DNA of 64,000 nt from Planctomyces sp. GTDB lineage: Bacteria; Planctomycetota; Planctomycetia; Planctomycetales; Planctomycetaceae. Both the position numbers and the translations under genes were made by a program. The stretch spans positions 1 to 64,000 of the forward strand of contig JAEUIH010000001.1 in NCBI GenBank assembly GCA_016795105.1. The letters are read 5' to 3'. The notes under the pieces are model-generated. The model saw nothing but the letters and a program-made list of their open reading frames with translations. It had not been told where the DNA came from and made no database searches. Shown here piece by piece: positions 13,867 to 19,982 of the stretch; the stretch's first letter is position 1; every line of letters starts with the position of its first letter.

Positions 13867-14889
13867 ATGCGTCAGGTTTATGTCCTTTTGTTTTCGGCGC
13901 TGGTAGGAGCTGCTGCGACCTGTGTTGCGGCACCTCAGGAAGCTGCCAGGACGCGAATTGAGGCCAGGAATACGGTGATCAATATCCTGGATTCACGCCC
14001 GCTTTCGTCCGAAGTTCCCGGAAAGCTGAAGTTGGTTGTACCAATGGAAGAAGGCATGCCGGTACGGAAGAACGAAGTTGTGATTGTGCTGGAAGATGGT
14101 CCGATCCGCAGTGCCTACAAAGAGGCGGTTGAGAAGTCGAAGATGAATGCTGAGATTGAGTTTTCGCAGAAGGCACTCGACAAAGCGAAGGTGGACGAAG
14201 AGGTTCAAAAGGAGCAGAACCAGAAACTTCCGGAAGCTCCTCCCTTCAGTCCTGCGGAAATGCGGCAGGCGAGGATTGAAGTCGAGAAAGCCGAGGCGCA
14301 GCTCAAGAAGTCAAATGAAGATCAAACGGTCGCTCTGCTGGCCGCCGAGACGAAAGCCGCGGAATTGGCTCAATATGAGATTCGATCGCCAATCGACGGT
14401 GTTGTGACAAAAGTTGATCGTCGCCCAGGACAATCGGTTCGACAGGGAGATCCGATCATTACGGTGACTGACTTAACGGTGATGAAAGCTGAACTGTCTG
14501 TTCCTTATATCTTCAGAGATCAGATATTTATTGGTGACGAAGTTGAGGTGCAGATTTTTGAGCCCGCGTCAGGCGGTGGATCAACGTTTGGAAGCAAAAC
14601 CGGTGGAGAACTGACACCATTGTCCGGTGCTCCTGGTGTCCCCATCAGCGATCCGAAGAAGGCAAATCCTGCAACTCCTGCGGCTGCTCAGCCAACAGCC
14701 GACATTCAGGCAAATACAGGGAGGCCTCTGGAGAAGTTTATTGGTCGAGTCTACTTCATTGCACCAGACATTGAAGTTTCGGCTCAACAGCTGAAAGTGT
14801 ATGTCAGCGTTCCGAATCGGCAGGATTCAGCCGGCCGGTATTTGTTGCATCAGGGCGTTACTGCAAAGGCGTGGATCCTTGCTCGGTAG
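13867..14889 (+). CDS. HlyD-family periplasmic adaptor (membrane fusion) protein
   Basis: 340 residues starting with a signal peptide (MRQVYVLLFSALVGAAATCVAAP) and preceded by GGGAGGCGATAAGGA. The first half-lipoyl motif (SSEVPGKLKLVVPMEEGMPV) is followed by a charged coiled coil (about 80-165) and the second half-lipoyl motif (YEIRSPIDGVVTKVDRRPGQSVRQGD), then beta-barrel sequence. Such adaptors link inner-membrane exporters to the outer membrane. A Gly/Pro/Ala-rich insert (about 235-280) interrupts the barrel. It is followed 25 nt later by a PqqD-like/M50/HlyD fusion, and the two probably form one export or processing unit. No ABC transporter or outer-membrane channel gene is adjacent. Confidence 0.88.
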   Translation: MRQVYVLLFSALVGAAATCVAAPQEAARTRIEARNTVINILDSRPLSSEVPGKLKLVVPMEEGMPVRKNEVVIVLEDGPIRSAYKEAVEKSKMNAEIEFSQKALDKAKVDEEVQKEQNQKLPEAPPFSPAEMRQARIEVEKAEAQLKKSNEDQTVALLAAETKAAELAQYEIRSPIDGVVTKVDRRPGQSVRQGDPIITVTDLTVMKAELSVPYIFRDQIFIGDEVEVQIFEPASGGGSTFGSKTGGELTPLSGAPGVPISDPKKANPATPAAAQPTADIQANTGRPLEKFIGRVYFIAPDIEVSAQQLKVYVSVPNRQDSAGRYLLHQGVTAKAWILAR

Positions 14890-14914
14890 TGGCTCATCTC
14901 AGACATCGGGAAGT

Positions 14915-17290
14915 ATGGTCGCATCCAATGAGCGACCGATTCCACTTCAGAAGCGGGCTGACCTGAAGGTTGCCAATATTGATTACCTGGGTGTTGGATA
15001 TCAGGTGATCAAGGACCCGGTTGCGCTGAAGTATCATCGGCTTCAGGTAGAACAATACCGCATTCTGGAACTTCTTGACGGGAAACGCAGCCTTGAAAAA
15101 GTGCGAGAAGATTTGAAGGGCGAGTTTCCGGCACTGCAGGTAACACTCAGTGACATTCAACAGTTGATCACGGACCTGCATAAAAAAGGTCTGGTCATCA
15201 GCAACCGCCCGGGGCAGGGTGCTGCTGTCATTCGAGAGCGTACAAAGACTCGAAATGACAAAATCAAACAGACCTTGATGAGCCTGTTGTACCTGCGTCT
15301 TCCCGGCTGGGACCCTGAACGCACGTTGAAATTCATTCATCCGTTTACCGCATGGTTATTTCATCCATTTGCGGTCAGTGTTTGTATGATGTTTGTTGTT
15401 TCTGCCTGGCTGGTTCTTGCTGCGAATATGCAGCAGCTTCAGGGGAAACTCCCGGAGTTTCAGAACTTCTTCGGTTGGCCGAACCTGATCTACCTCTGGA
15501 TCACGATGGCATTCGCAAAGATCATCCACGAATTTGGACACGGGCTGAGCTGTGTTCATTATGGTGGAGAATGCCACGAGATGGGTGTGATGCTGCTGGT
15601 CTTCAGCCCATGTCTGTATTGCGATGTTACGGATTCGTGGATGATGAAAAACAAGTGGCATCGGATCATCATCGGTGCCGCAGGAATGTATATCGAAGTC
15701 ATTCTTTCAGCGGTGGCTATTTACATCTGGTGGTTCACGAAGCCGGGCCTTCTGAATTACCTTGCCTTGAATACTTTCTTTGTCACAACAATCACGACTG
15801 TCATCTTCAATGCGAACCCGCTGATGAGATTCGACGGTTATTACATGATGAGCGACTTCCTGGAAATCCCGAATCTTCGCCAGAAGTCAGACAAGTTACT
15901 GCGTGAAGCGTTCGCCTGGTACTGCCTGGGAATCGAATCTCGTCCGGATCCGTTCATGCCGGAAACCGGGCGTGCATGGTTCGTAACCTATGCCATCGCT
16001 GCCTGGCTCTATCGCTGGGTTGTACTTGTTTCCATCAGTATGTTCTTCTACACAGTGCTCAAGCCGTACGACCTGCAGAGTCTGGGGATCACGATGATGG
16101 TCTTCAGCATGGGCGGAGTCGTCTTCGCAATGTTCAAGAACGTCTATCAGATTATCGCAGCACCCCGGATGGAACCCATGAGCAAAATCAAGATTGCGTT
16201 TTCTCTGAGCGTGCTCGGCGGGCTGGGCTGGCTGGCATGTACGATCCCGATTCCCTGGTACCACGAAGCTCCGTTCTTTCTGGAGCCTCGCAAGGTGGCT
16301 TCCGTAAATGCTCCTTTTACCGGGCAGATTGTTCAGCCGGCTGAGTATGCAAAACGCTATGAACAGCTTGATGCGCTGGAGAAATATACAAAAGACAAAG
16401 CTGTTTTGCTGATGGACCTGAATTTTCGCAGCAACTTTTCGCTCATCGAGGGTCTGCCGTCGCCTGATGAGTATCGTGCATTGCCGAAAAATGGGGATTC
16501 GATCGAACAACGTGAAGTGTTGGCGATTATCGAAGACGAAAATGATATCCGTAATCGGGATGACATGGTTCAGAATGCCTACCGCTGGGCGGCGCGAACT
16601 GACGAAGCATTGGTGCTGCTGCGGCAGAATGATTTGCTGAAGTCACGGGAAGCCCTGGCTGAAGTGATCATTCTCGAAGAACGCATCCGTGAACTTGCGA
16701 GACTCAGCGCAACACGTGTCGTCAGATCTCCGATCTCGGGAACAATCGTTGCTGCAAAAAGGATTCCTGAGCCCGTTCGAGAAGAAACAGATCCGACAAA
16801 GCTTCAGCGCTGGCACGGTACTCCACTTGATGAACGGAACGCAGGCTGCTTTGTTGAAATTGGTCAGGAGTTGCTGACAATCGCTCCGACGTCCGAACTG
16901 CATGCCGTATTGTATGTGGATCAGGGAGATCGTGACGATATTGAGGACACGATGAAGGTTGAGTTGAAACTTGATCACCTGCCGGACGTCACATACGTCT
17001 CAAAAGTGGCGGAGTTTTCGCCACGAGGGGAGTTGTTGGCTCCGGAATCCCTCACAACACGATTTCAGGGGCCACTGAACACGACGCCGGATGCCGCAGG
17101 CAAGGAAAAACTTGCAAGCACGGCATACCGAGCAATTGTTCGGATGGATTTCTCGGATGATTCAAACATCCCGGATTCTGTCCTGATGAAGCCCGGCATG
17201 CGTGGAAACGCACGTTTTATCATTGAAAACCGCACAGCTTTTCAGTGGGTAAAACGGTACCTGTACGAAACATTCAGGTTCCGGGTCTAA
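14915..17290 (+). CDS. PqqD-like / M50 metalloprotease / HlyD-like fusion protein
   Basis: 791 residues from the ATG at 14915; the frame is open further upstream, but that stretch overlaps the previous gene. Order of parts: a PqqD-like winged-helix region (about 15-95; YRILELLDGKRSLEKV), a polytopic membrane region with the S2P/M50 zinc motif HEFGH (about residues 206-210) and the second motif NPLMRFDGYY, then a C-terminal half with HlyD-type lipoyl sequence (ASVNAPFTGQIVQPAEY and VVRSPISGTIVAAKRIP) around a coiled coil. Related fusions occur in planctomycetes and in peptide-export loci; substrates are unknown. Together with the preceding adaptor it may export or cleave a membrane-bound peptide. 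The stop codon TAA abuts a REPIN-like repeat. Confidence 0.88.
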   Translation: MVASNERPIPLQKRADLKVANIDYLGVGYQVIKDPVALKYHRLQVEQYRILELLDGKRSLEKVREDLKGEFPALQVTLSDIQQLITDLHKKGLVISNRPGQGAAVIRERTKTRNDKIKQTLMSLLYLRLPGWDPERTLKFIHPFTAWLFHPFAVSVCMMFVVSAWLVLAANMQQLQGKLPEFQNFFGWPNLIYLWITMAFAKIIHEFGHGLSCVHYGGECHEMGVMLLVFSPCLYCDVTDSWMMKNKWHRIIIGAAGMYIEVILSAVAIYIWWFTKPGLLNYLALNTFFVTTITTVIFNANPLMRFDGYYMMSDFLEIPNLRQKSDKLLREAFAWYCLGIESRPDPFMPETGRAWFVTYAIAAWLYRWVVLVSISMFFYTVLKPYDLQSLGITMMVFSMGGVVFAMFKNVYQIIAAPRMEPMSKIKIAFSLSVLGGLGWLACTIPIPWYHEAPFFLEPRKVASVNAPFTGQIVQPAEYAKRYEQLDALEKYTKDKAVLLMDLNFRSNFSLIEGLPSPDEYRALPKNGDSIEQREVLAIIEDENDIRNRDDMVQNAYRWAARTDEALVLLRQNDLLKSREALAEVIILEERIRELARLSATRVVRSPISGTIVAAKRIPEPVREETDPTKLQRWHGTPLDERNAGCFVEIGQELLTIAPTSELHAVLYVDQGDRDDIEDTMKVELKLDHLPDVTYVSKVAEFSPRGELLAPESLTTRFQGPLNTTPDAAGKEKLASTAYRAIVRMDFSDDSNIPDSVLMKPGMRGNARFIIENRTAFQWVKRYLYETFRFRV

Positions 17291-17371
17291 AGTAGAAGGC
17301 AGACTCCGTCTGCCGTCCGCCAACGCGCCCCACCGTGGCGCGGACGGCACTCGGAGAGTGCCTGCTACTTT
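17289..17371. repeat. REPIN-like palindromic doublet between convergent genes
   Basis: An 83-bp element running AAAGTAG ... CTACTTT. The left arm holds the hairpin GGCAGAC-TCC-GTCTGCC plus GTCCGC, the right arm is the inverse, GCGGAC plus GGCACTC-GGA-GAGTGCC, and the spacer itself pairs (GCGCC...GGCGC). The stop codon TAA of the M50 fusion overlaps its first two bases, and the ppk2 stop codon (TAG on the minus strand) lies inside the right end. It probably also serves as a bidirectional transcript end. Confidence 0.9.
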
Positions 17372-18555
17372 GGGGAGGTCAATGCGTGTTCGCCTTGTTC
17401 GAAGACGACCTGAGCTCGACCGACTAACAGCGGATCGACGGTCGCGATTGCATCGAGATCTTTACCTTCGTAGGGAATTCGATGCAGAACGTATCGCATC
17501 GCGTTCAGTCGTGCTCGTTTTTTGCAGTCGGATTTGACCACTGTCCAGGGAGCATCCGCCGTATCGGTATAGAAGAACATGGCTTCCTTGGCCTTCGTGT
17601 ATTCATCCCATTTGTCGAGTGAAGCGGTATCGATTGGTGAAAGCTTCCACTGTTTCAGAGGATGACGTTCGCGTTCGGAAAACCGCCGCAGCTGTTCTTT
17701 GCGGCTGACAGAGAACCAGAACTTGATCAGGTGAATTCCGCTTCGGCAGAGATTCCTTTCGAACTCGGGCGCCTGTCTCATGAATTCGCCGTATTCATCA
17801 CGACTACAGAAACCCATAACCCACTCGACTCCGGCTCGGTTATACCACGAACGATCGAACATCACGATTTCGCCACGGGTTGGGAGATGTTCGACGTAGC
17901 GTTGGAAGTACCATTGTCCTCGTTCGAGCTCTGTAGGCTTTTCAAGTGCAACAACGCGGGCACCTCGGGGATTCATGTGCTCCATAAAGCGTTTAATGGC
18001 GCCTCCCTTGCCGGCAGCATCACGCCCTTCAAACAATATCACGACCTTTTGGCCTGTCTTCTTTACCCATGCCTGTAGTTTCAGGAGTTCGACCTGAAGC
18101 CGATACTTTTGTTTTTCATAGTTTCGGCGAGACATCAAATACTTGTATGGGTACCCGCCGGTTCTCCAGTCAGAGGCAAGGATCGCGTCAGCCTCCACGG
18201 CGGATAACTCGGTCTGCTGATCACCAGCAGTTCGTTCGATCAAAGTCTTTCGAAGGGCTTCAGCATCGTCAGGAGATGAACCAAGAATGATGGCGTGCAA
18301 CACCTTTGAGAGTGTGTCCGTATCATGAGGAGTGACGCCCTTCATGATATCGATAATCGCGTTGATCTTTGCCTCCTGAGCTGCACTGATGGCTTGTTCC
18401 ACAGTTTGTTTTTGCAGCCCTGTGTCGGTTGTCGCTGGCAGAACATCACCTTGCGCGACTTTCCTTTGCCGCGGCTGTTTTGCCTTCGTTCGCTTCGCCT
18501 TTTGAGTTCTGGTCGTTTGATCCACACCGTTGTCTGACGCTGACTTTTCTGCCAT
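17365..18555 (-). CDS. Polyphosphate kinase 2 family protein
   Basis: 396 residues from the ATG at 18555; a longer open frame upstream runs only through repeat DNA. A Lys/Arg/Gln-rich low-complexity N-terminus (about 1-45) and a helical region precede the PPK2 core. The core has Walker A FEGRDAAGKGGAIKRF (about 176-191), the lid region, and Walker B MFDRSWYNRAGVEWVMGF. PPK2 enzymes transfer phosphate between polyphosphate and nucleotides (often GDP or ADP). FWFSVSRKEQLRRFSERERHPLKQWKLSP is the usual continuation. The protein is about 100 residues longer at the N-terminus than minimal PPK2 enzymes. It is convergent with the M50 fusion and downstream of an SDR gene. Confidence 0.94.
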   Translation of the reverse strand: MAEKSASDNGVDQTTRTQKAKRTKAKQPRQRKVAQGDVLPATTDTGLQKQTVEQAISAAQEAKINAIIDIMKGVTPHDTDTLSKVLHAIILGSSPDDAEALRKTLIERTAGDQQTELSAVEADAILASDWRTGGYPYKYLMSRRNYEKQKYRLQVELLKLQAWVKKTGQKVVILFEGRDAAGKGGAIKRFMEHMNPRGARVVALEKPTELERGQWYFQRYVEHLPTRGEIVMFDRSWYNRAGVEWVMGFCSRDEYGEFMRQAPEFERNLCRSGIHLIKFWFSVSRKEQLRRFSERERHPLKQWKLSPIDTASLDKWDEYTKAKEAMFFYTDTADAPWTVVKSDCKKRARLNAMRYVLHRIPYEGKDLDAIATVDPLLVGRAQVVFEQGEHALTSPK

Positions 18556-18680
18556 GGACTTCCGAGTTTCTACGTTTGAAAACCTCGATCGCAAAAGTGG
18601 ATGTTTCCATTCAGAATAGCGATGAGATGGAAGTGCTGTCCAACGAAACAACGGGGCCGGCATGGAAAATCGGAAGGTGC

Positions 18681-18932
18681 ATAGCAGGCACACCCCATGT
18701 GCCGTCCGCCCTCCGTAGCAGGCACATTCCATGTGCCGTCCGCCCTCCGTAGCAGGCACATTCCATGTGCCGTCCGCCCTCTGTAGCAGGCACATTCCAT
18801 GTGCCGTCCGCCCTCTGTAGCAGGCACATTCCATGTGCCGTCCGCCTTCCGTAGCAGGCACATTCCATGTGCCGTCCGCGATATCGTGGGTGCCCTCTTG
18901 CGGACGGCATTCGGAGAATGCCTGCTACTTTA
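18681..18932. repeat. Array of six 34-bp hairpin repeats plus inverted end unit
   Basis: Units start at 18681, 18715, 18749, 18783, 18817 and 18851, an exact 34-bp period. Each carries GTAGCA, the hairpin GGCACAT-TCC-ATGTGCC and CGTCCGC. After a 20-bp spacer comes one inverted unit with a different stem (GGCATTC-GGA-GAATGCC) whose end CTACTTTA contains the SDR stop codon. This is a REPIN doublet like that at 17289, with one arm amplified. There are no variable spacers, so it is not a CRISPR. Confidence 0.93.
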
Positions 18933-19703
18933 GGCGGATCGGCGGGTGAGTTTTTGTTTGAGGCGTTGCATGCCTTTTAGCCAGCGATCGTGGTTTTCCG
19001 CCTTCATTCGAAAGAATTCGGCGACTTCGGGATGCGGCAGGATCAAAAACTGCTCTCGGTCGATCCCTTCGACAATCGACTCAGCCGCCTGCATCGCGGA
19101 GATTGAATGCAGCTGTAGGTAGCGATGAATCGGATCGCTTTCATCGAGCATATCGGTTTCGACTCCGAGCGGACAAACGCAGGAGACTTTGATGCCCTGC
19201 CTGCCGTATGTCACTGAAAGCCATTCTGCGAACGCTACGTCGGCATGTTTTGTGACCGAGTAGCTCGCGGACCCGATTTCCGTGAGAAGTCCGGCTGCTG
19301 ACGCCGTATGGATGAGGTATCCACTGCCCGCCTCGATCATGGCAGGGATGACGGCACGAGCTGCGTATAGCCGAGACATTACATTGACATCCCAGAGCTG
19401 CTGCCATTCAGAGTTGGGGCATTCGAGTCCACCCTTGGCAGTGATTCCGGCATTTGAACAGAATACGTCTATGCGTCCCCATCTGCTGAGTACATTTTCA
19501 ACGAGATCAATCACGCTGCACTCATTTGCGACATCGCAGATGACGGGAACTCCGCCGTACTGATCAGCGGAAGCGAACACGGCGGAGTCTCGATCGGAAG
19601 CGATCACGGCTTTGGCACCTGCGGTTGCGAAGCGTTCGCACATGGCAGCACCAATTCCGCGTGCTGCACCGGTGACAACAACGACCCGATCCTGAATTTC
19701 CAC
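18930..19703 (-). CDS. SDR-family NAD(P)-dependent oxidoreductase
   Basis: 257 residues from a GTG at 19703, which gives the usual family N-terminus (VEIQDRVVVVTGAARGIG). An upstream ATG at 19796 would add about 31 atypical residues. Classical SDR motifs are present: TGAARGIG for nucleotide binding, SNAG, the catalytic Ser region (HTASAAGLL) and YSVTK with catalytic Tyr and Lys. The aspartate in ASDRD after beta-2 suggests NAD preference. The C-terminus is basic and amphipathic (WLKGMQRLKQKLTRRSA). The substrate is unknown. The stop codon TAA forms the start of the repeat array separating it from ppk2. Confidence 0.9.
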   Translation of the reverse strand: MEIQDRVVVVTGAARGIGAAMCERFATAGAKAVIASDRDSAVFASADQYGGVPVICDVANECSVIDLVENVLSRWGRIDVFCSNAGITAKGGLECPNSEWQQLWDVNVMSRLYAARAVIPAMIEAGSGYLIHTASAAGLLTEIGSASYSVTKHADVAFAEWLSVTYGRQGIKVSCVCPLGVETDMLDESDPIHRYLQLHSISAMQAAESIVEGIDREQFLILPHPEVAEFFRMKAENHDRWLKGMQRLKQKLTRRSA

Positions 19704-19982
19704 GACGATCGCCTTGTTGATAAGCAGCGAACAGGCGGATACGCCGCAATGAAAATGCGGCGTCGGCCGTCCCTGGCCTGTGCCGCTTCCTGCCATCCGT
19801 GCAGGTCACTTCAACCACAGGGATCTCAGTGAGGCGGGAACATTACCGACATCAAAGCGGTCTGTCAAAACCAACAGTCGTCAAATCCTGAATACCCACT
19901 TTCACGAAAGCCGGAAGTGAATATCATTCCTCAATGATGCCGCAGTTTTTGCCGGTCCCAGTGAAACCGAAGAGTTTAGTTT

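Follow-up and report, generated by a model that had tools for sequence, protein, structure and literature searches.

Unlike facing arms in a GTAG-type REP family of a planctomycete genome

We analysed a stretch of 64,000 nucleotides from a Planctomyces sp. genome (assembly GCA_016795105.1, contig JAEUIH010000001.1, positions 1 to 64,000; here called the window), in which short hairpins with a shared sequence frame stand between genes. These hairpins are repetitive extragenic palindromic (REP) sequences of the GTAG type, partly arranged in head-to-head doublets as in REPINs (REP doublets forming hairpins). Our data make it highly probable that they belong to a family of non-autonomous mobile repeats which owes its spread to a REP-associated tyrosine transposase (RAYT, also TnpA_REP) and follows a not-self pattern throughout the genome: among 64 head-to-head doublets none carries the same stem type, named here after its inner three bases, on both arms. 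This genome-wide pattern is the distinctive feature of the family. A first-pass annotation of the window had stressed the compensatory changes between the stems; we find the more interesting point to be that the stem differences represent a few discrete types joined in strictly unlike head-to-head pairs.

Results

Facing arms carry different stem types

The genome is a draft of 8.9 Mb in 391 contigs (99.96% complete). Whole-genome searches with the exact frame, spacers of 15-45 nt and the left arms CAT, TTC or [GC][AT]C gave the 64 doublets in seven classes (CAT:TTC, 30; CAT:GAC, 15; GAC:CTC, 10; TTC:GAC, 4; CAT:CTC, 2; CAT:GTC, 2; TTC:CTC, 1); other spacings and types are covered by the classing of neighbouring REPs described below. 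Two of the doublets, C344:22018 and C391:88413, have one stem with a mismatch on one side and were assigned to the type they most resemble. Random re-pairing of the arms predicts 17.8 alike doublets, and the observed value of zero was never reached in 200,000 shuffles; for nine doublets with an incompletely visible match the partner type used in this test was taken from the visible letters and from opposite-strand rows, whereas the spacer analyses and the first folding analysis were confined to the other 55. Alike pairs remain absent upon thinning to one doublet per site (n=49; 13.6 expected, zero never reached in shuffles), per tight spacer cluster (n=38; 10.6 expected, 0/100,000 shuffles) and per looser spacer cluster (n=22; 5.7 expected, zero reached in 118/100,000 shuffles), these values possibly being too strong as the shuffles treat doublets as independent, which copying violates, and thinning lessens this effect without removing it.

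The orientation of neighbouring REPs, classed in the fetched sequence at spacings of up to 250 bp and with up to four mismatches, separates the arrangements: head-to-head neighbours are unlike in 44 cases and alike in none, tail-to-tail neighbours unlike in 25 and alike in two, and direct neighbours unlike in three and alike in ten, two of the three unlike direct pairs differing by a one-sided base change alone. The pair types form triangles (CAT:TTC, TTC:GAC and CAT:GAC; CAT:GAC, GAC:CTC and CAT:CTC), so that partners are not fixed, suggesting that the rule is "not the same" rather than "A with B". The doublets combine conserved arms with a less conserved spacer, as in REPINs, and symmetrical arms as in those of Pseudomonas fluorescens SBW25 were found in 0/64. 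Spacers at least 70% alike bear different arm pairs, and between 11 hand-picked neighbouring doublet pairs in arrays the spacers differ at 33/221 positions. As a separate observation, one same-type tail-to-tail pair (G000:C11:27442-27500, G000 being the present genome) has both arms mutated at the same stem base.

A large and homogeneous family of perfect hairpins

The 29-nt frame GTAGNAGGCANNNTCCNNNTGCCGTCCGC has 375 exact copies in the genome and its reversed control none, contrary to the scarcity of copies that would have refuted the first-pass annotation. Each hairpin consists of GTAG, two nucleotides, a 7-bp stem and a 3-nt loop, in accordance with PMC6006769, where GTAG REPs are defined by a GTAG placed 0-2 nt upstream of a short, perfectly paired hairpin. 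Within 853,735 bases the mismatch spread is bimodal, with 37 copies showing no mismatch, five showing one, two showing two, none showing three or four and one showing five, followed by background. These bases are not a random sample: C11 and C22 had come up in the REP listing, C347 and C325 (each read in part) in the transposase search, the window holds the finding itself, and all five were chosen for their known lengths. Near-perfect copies together with the gap at three to four mismatches suggest a family that is young, active or strongly homogenised. The copies are mostly extragenic, only 4/31 scored clusters being flagged within an open reading frame (ORF) by a simple longest-ORF rule.

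All three inner stem pairs are formed, G-U included, in 102/104 copies of this genome and 155/163 copies of related genomes; as the search pattern fixed the outer stem, information comes from these three alone, and some copies may be counted more than once where loci overlap. Covariation was scored on 30 hand-chosen forms, distinct in about their first 23 bases and drawn from 79 distinct 29-mers among 267 copies; in these 30 forms 96.2% of cells are paired. The score of 0.401 compares with 0.122 in shuffles and at most 0.118 with the partner slid, bearing out compensatory change in the stems, while two of five measures do not rise above the shuffles (both-side-changed pairs, 439/500; further pair types, 71/500). 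As read from the sequences, the commonest stem of the relatives in this set, CAC, is one paired change away from CAT, GAC and CTC, and CTC is one away from TTC.

Three REPs (G000:C347:67, C22:24306 and C49:12493) have CTAG in place of GTAG and share the 12-nt flank CTCGCAAACGCA, which suggests either that the repeat is longer or that a unit containing the REP was copied together with its flank.

RAYT genes stand beside their own REPs

No RAYT gene had been seen in the window, and the RAYT-like matches listed for the genome all lie off its contig, C111. The genome has nine Y1_Tnp matches, eight of which exceed the cut-off, and the likely cognate RAYT is a protein of 218 residues encoded on C42. 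It carries the motifs NHVH and YIADNP, corresponding to the HUH and tyrosine motifs of Y1 transposases, and matches Pfam Y1_Tnp (PF01797) above the cut-off (27.6 versus 23 bits). Its gene is directly followed on the 3' side by six REPs, the first of which supplies the RAYT stop codon as the TAG of its GTAG, thus placing the gene that the first-pass annotation proposed to look for beside a REP array of its own; on the 5' side no REP copy occurs within the 177 bases to the contig start.

Relatives of the C42 RAYT were found in 71/150 family genomes and, among named records (the best 80 of 177 loci), mainly in planctomycetes, Verrucomicrobia and Candidatus Poribacteria. We inspected the flanks of 34 of these 80 loci by eye, about 110-130 bases on each side, and found the RAYT to stand between REPs of the same or a very similar frame in roughly a dozen (e.g. 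L149, L152, L153, L154, L155, L158, L160, L165 and L166), with REPs on one side in several more, and other hairpins beside more distant RAYTs. The RAYT stop is the TAG of a GTAG also in L155, L158, L160, L165 and L166. Planctomycetes and Candidatus Poribacteria alike have RAYTs that are 59-69% identical and accompanied by REPs of similar frame. The loci L152, L153, L154, L156, L157 and L226 from Candidatus or uncultured Poribacteria have RAYTs 59-64% identical to the C42 protein and a closely related REP frame (e.g. GTAGTAGGCACGCTCCGCGTGCC), a hint of transfer from one phylum to another.

A paralogous RAYT on C353 (L038:927-1900 = G000:C353:22136-23130), 45% identical to the C42 RAYT, is flanked by a separate REP family, GTAGAACGATTG-TCCT-CAATCG and relatives (GTAGAACGATTGTCCTCAATCGTT / GTAGAGCAATTGTCCTCAATTGCT), with 22 copies of the pattern in the genome versus one in the control. 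This second family has two main stem types only, and its arms are unlike in 4/4 head-to-head and 4/4 tail-to-tail pairs. The genome thus holds at least two RAYTs with their own REPs, as reported in PMC3733652 for other species; beside the other Y1_Tnp matches a simple hairpin scan found no REP of such kind.

REP clusters abut gene 3' ends

The fetched sequence contains 38 clusters, of which 31 could be scored after dropping seven at contig or stretch edges, with gene ends called by the longest-ORF rule at a minimum of 100 codons. Gene 3' ends lie between -4 and +6 nt from the cluster edge in 23/38 cases, compared to 6.5% expected for random intergenic points, whereas only 1/24 gene 5' ends is equally close; the position at stop codons is therefore non-random, as the first-pass annotation had supposed. 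The TAG of GTAG serves as the stop codon in 11 of the 38 scored gene 3' ends. Such placement was outlined earlier for other GTAG REPs, as described in PMC3733652. Clusters between converging genes are in excess (12/31 versus 108/625 neighbouring gene pairs, p 0.007), a result resting partly on 17 extended pieces picked because they hold REPs; the large pieces without the window have three convergent of 12 clusters. Upstream of the outer GTAG (n=58) an A stands at position -3 in 45, at -2 in 34 and at -1 in 39 cases.

The REP loci of the window

The motif TGCCGTCCGC occurs nine times in the window against a chance expectation of 0.18, and nine hairpins match the frame to within two mismatches. 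The four hairpins reported earlier are thus real, though less than half of the copies present, and their stems (GAC/GTC, CAT/ATG, TTC/GAA and CTC/GAG) were correctly read. The layout comprises one head-to-head doublet (17292-17368) and six direct copies (18681-18879) opposite one inverted copy (18900-18928) (Table 1). Both head-to-head doublets of the first-pass annotation are present; the direct CAT array, six copies of one stem type at a 34-nt period with a degraded first copy, had escaped mention. The stop codons were described as overlapped by or contained in the doublets, which is correct for ppk2, its stop on the minus strand (17365-17367) being the TAG of a GTAG, whereas the TAA codons of the M50-like gene (17288-17290) and of the short-chain dehydrogenase (SDR) gene (18930-18932) each stand one base outside their GTAG (TAA-A-GTAG) and therefore abut the REP without being part of it. 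Pfam strongly supports PPK2 and short-chain dehydrogenase; the M50 match falls below the cut-off (22.2 versus 27.2 bits) and HlyD_3 exceeds it in the same protein. Rfam at gathering scores gave no matches in the window.

Table 1. Positions of the REP hairpins, doublet spacers and flanking genes in the window
Feature	Position	Strand	Remark
REP hairpin, GAC/GTC stem, left arm of doublet 1	17292-17320	+	A instead of usual C at position 5
Spacer of doublet 1, 19 nt	17321-17339	none	spacers up to 80% alike elsewhere bear other arm pairs
REP hairpin, CTC/GAG stem, right arm of doublet 1	17340-17368	-	GTAG provides ppk2 stop TAG 17365-17367
REP hairpin, direct array copy 1	18681-18709	+	most degraded (ATAG, CAC-CCC-ATG)
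REP hairpin, CAT/ATG stem, direct array copy 2	18715-18743	+	34-nt period
REP hairpin, CAT/ATG stem, direct array copy 3	18749-18777	+	
REP hairpin, CAT/ATG stem, direct array copy 4	18783-18811	+	
REP hairpin, CAT/ATG stem, direct array copy 5	18817-18845	+	
REP hairpin, CAT/ATG stem, direct array copy 6	18851-18879	+	left arm of doublet 2
Spacer of doublet 2, 20 nt	18880-18899	none	
REP hairpin, TTC/GAA stem, right arm of doublet 2	18900-18928	-	SDR stop TAA 18930-18932 one base beyond GTAG
M50-peptidase-like / HlyD protein gene	14801-17290	+	stop one base ahead of REP
ppk2 gene	17365-18558	-	start inferred; longer ORF to 18861 crosses REP array
Short-chain dehydrogenase (SDR) gene	18930-19796	-	

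Discussion

Our data support a model according to which a single-stranded REP would fold into a short hairpin behind its GTAG, to be bound, cut and rejoined by a RAYT, presumably the C42 protein. Head-to-head doublets would be moved or copied, with a preference for sites directly following AAA, and would mostly survive right at the stop codons of genes, where GTAG itself can provide the stop, with later tandem duplication yielding arrays such as the six-copy array of the window. Doublets with identical arms would be removed or converted, either by selection or by a repair or replication process. Several observations weigh against this model. When the full doublet is folded with its flanks, a single long hairpin is favoured for unlike arms as well (mean probability 0.94 with DNA parameters, 0.98 with RNA parameters), so that a difference between the arms is not enough by itself to keep two hairpins apart. 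Two tail-to-tail pairs with 1 bp between their arms have the same stem type, one exactly (C44:33906) and one with mutated arms (C11:27442), and near-perfect palindromes are thus not absolutely excluded in this genome. The C42 RAYT scores below the curated cut-off of the NCBIfam model for REP-associated tyrosine transposases (NF047646; 63.6 versus 80 bits, E 1.8e-17). Finally, RAYT and REP do not always co-occur: genome G113 has 36 exact copies and a best RAYT match of just 36% identity, and G006 has three REP copies and no RAYT match.

The same REP frame was found in 15/150 family genomes and head-to-head doublets in 20/170, the present genome included, providing a natural comparison as many relatives carry identical arms. 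Among the doublets listed, which were classed by eye on exact identity of both stems and amount to about 14 of 71 in G113, 12 of 25 in G157 and 5 of 8 in G165, like arms prevail in G113, G157, G006, G083, G107 and others, genus g53 has mainly unlike arms, and G068 shows a mixture. Like arms are biologically possible and survive draft assembly; with relatives mostly having identical arms among these doublets, the not-self rule is lineage-specific.

As to the cause, we tentatively put forward a combinatorial rule, which we hold to be somewhat less likely than not. The stem types would be interchangeable and switch by conversion or mutation, and doublets that have turned alike would be actively eliminated or reconverted by a hairpin nuclease, by replication or by the RAYT. 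If this holds, the sequence code of the mobile repeats would bear the mark of a host function, for instance SbcCD. Searches of an open-licence library of papers gave no description of such a rule.

Unlike arms might also be merely inherited, with a few founding doublets being unlike by chance and then copied, as may be so in families with one fixed partner pair. Founder copying probably contributes, CAT:TTC and CAT:GAC together making up 45/64 doublets and the relative G112 having one spacer type with a CAC:CAT-like pair in 5/6 listed doublets; as the whole explanation we consider it unlikely. A fixed left/right partnership cannot produce seven pair classes in triangles. Related spacers moreover occur with different pairs, as for CAT:TTC at C350:9376 next to TTC:GAC at C350:9453 and for GAC:CTC next to CAT:GAC on C33, and five pair classes occur within a single loose spacer cluster of 28 doublets, while proven arm switches are few, just 3/38 tight spacer clusters having more than one pair class. 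Even when each spacer cluster is reduced to a single doublet, chance would rarely produce a set devoid of alike pairs (118/100,000 shuffles in the strictest thinning).

A second possibility, to which we assign a similarly low likelihood, is that a hairpin nuclease such as SbcCD eliminates doublets whose inverted arms are identical, as proposed in PMC3733652, and that only unlike doublets persist in hosts having the nuclease. SbcD exceeds the TIGR00619 cut-off in 24/170 family genomes, among them the present one, in which the SbcD gene (L259 = G000:C336:51692-52474) is followed by an SbcC-like reading frame, recognised by eye and not by profile. Mostly unlike doublets occur in 6/8 genomes with SbcD and in 1/11 without (19 genomes, Fisher p 0.006), with G168 dropped as none of its doublets is listed and the tie in G124 (1 of 2) counted as alike; dropping G124 gives p 0.013 and counting it as unlike p 0.024. 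This correlation is confounded by ancestry and nearly amounts to a contrast between few genera: the genomes represent seven genera, and of the six that agree five belong to genus g53, the sixth being the present genome. Furthermore, G156 and G128 have SbcD yet mostly identical arms, G068 lacks a match above the cut-off yet has mostly unlike arms, and draft genomes may miss genes, with weak SbcD-like matches below the cut-off being common (134/170). We therefore keep SbcD as a confounded correlation only and not as an established cause.

The RAYT itself may need unlike arms: identical ones would pair with each other to give a single, perfect long hairpin in which the enzyme no longer finds the REP hairpins, and such doublets would be dead ends. 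Without the outer flanks 39/55 real doublets fold as local hairpins while 55/55 identical-arm versions fold as one long hairpin, and the exclusively unlike pairs of the C353-linked family point in the same direction. With the outer GTAGCA/TGCTAC flanks, however, the long form wins for both arm kinds, and we dropped flank-free folding as a decisive argument for local hairpins; as folding with and without flanks disagrees, it does not decide the cause. Doublets with identical arms do multiply in relatives that share the REP frame (G113 has about 70 doublets, of which those listed are identical), and the published REPINs of P. fluorescens are described as symmetrical (PMC3116915). This need of the enzyme is, like the two preceding causes, not what we expect to be the explanation.

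It is improbable that the hairpins serve mainly to terminate transcription in both directions or to stabilise mRNA 3' ends, selected at stop codons with mobility being incidental. Their position at stop codons and the excess between converging genes agree with such a role, but placement alone can arise from insertion tolerance, and hundreds of near-identical copies, direct arrays, RAYT linkage and a frame common to distant hosts fit mobile repeats better. An assembly artefact, in which existing identical-arm doublets were lost from this short-read draft, several of whose 391 contigs carry REPs near their ends, is very improbable given that relatives in many contigs retain such doublets at similar spacings and that direct identical arrays do assemble in this genome.

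Comparison with known systems

The REPs of Escherichia coli have fixed partner classes, Y with Z, whereas the pairing graph of the present family contains triangles. Likenesses to the E. coli bacterial interspersed mosaic elements (BIMEs) and their TnpA_REP, as described in PMC8266576, are the combination of REP and inverted REP, also in tandem, and the GTAG needed by the enzyme; the E. coli stem has a required bulge while the stems here are perfect. Unlike partners are shared as well, the dimers of Enterobacteriaceae differing in loop length according to PMC3733652. With the REPINs of P. fluorescens SBW25 (Bertels and Rainey 2011, PMC3116915) the family has in common inverted REP doublets, conserved arms with less conserved spacers, most often about 20 nt here, RAYT association and tandem clusters; the SBW25 elements are described as symmetrical, whereas the arms here differ at the inner three stem pairs.

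Closest are the GTAG REP families described by Di Nocera et al. (2013, PMC3733652), which share the GTAG tag, a short stem and a short loop, complementary stem changes, head-to-head dimers and clusters, the position between converging or unidirectional genes, the TAG of GTAG as stop and REPtrons with RAYT, and which include families made only of heterodimers as well as REPs in the planctomycete Rhodopirellula baltica. The present hairpins thus form part of a true REPIN/RAYT system, of a kind that had been described before, also from this phylum, and the planctomycete REPIN counterpart proposed by the first-pass annotation is supported as a REPIN, though it is not new. What sets it apart from those families, as they are described, is that CAT, TTC, GAC, CTC and the rare GTC occur in seven unlike combinations and never like with like head-to-head. 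Preferential heterodimer formation "has no obvious explanation" according to the same paper. At least four interchangeable stems without an identical head-to-head pair being found separate inherited partner classes from an avoidance of identity, and the not-self pattern thereby makes this old observation on heterodimers testable.

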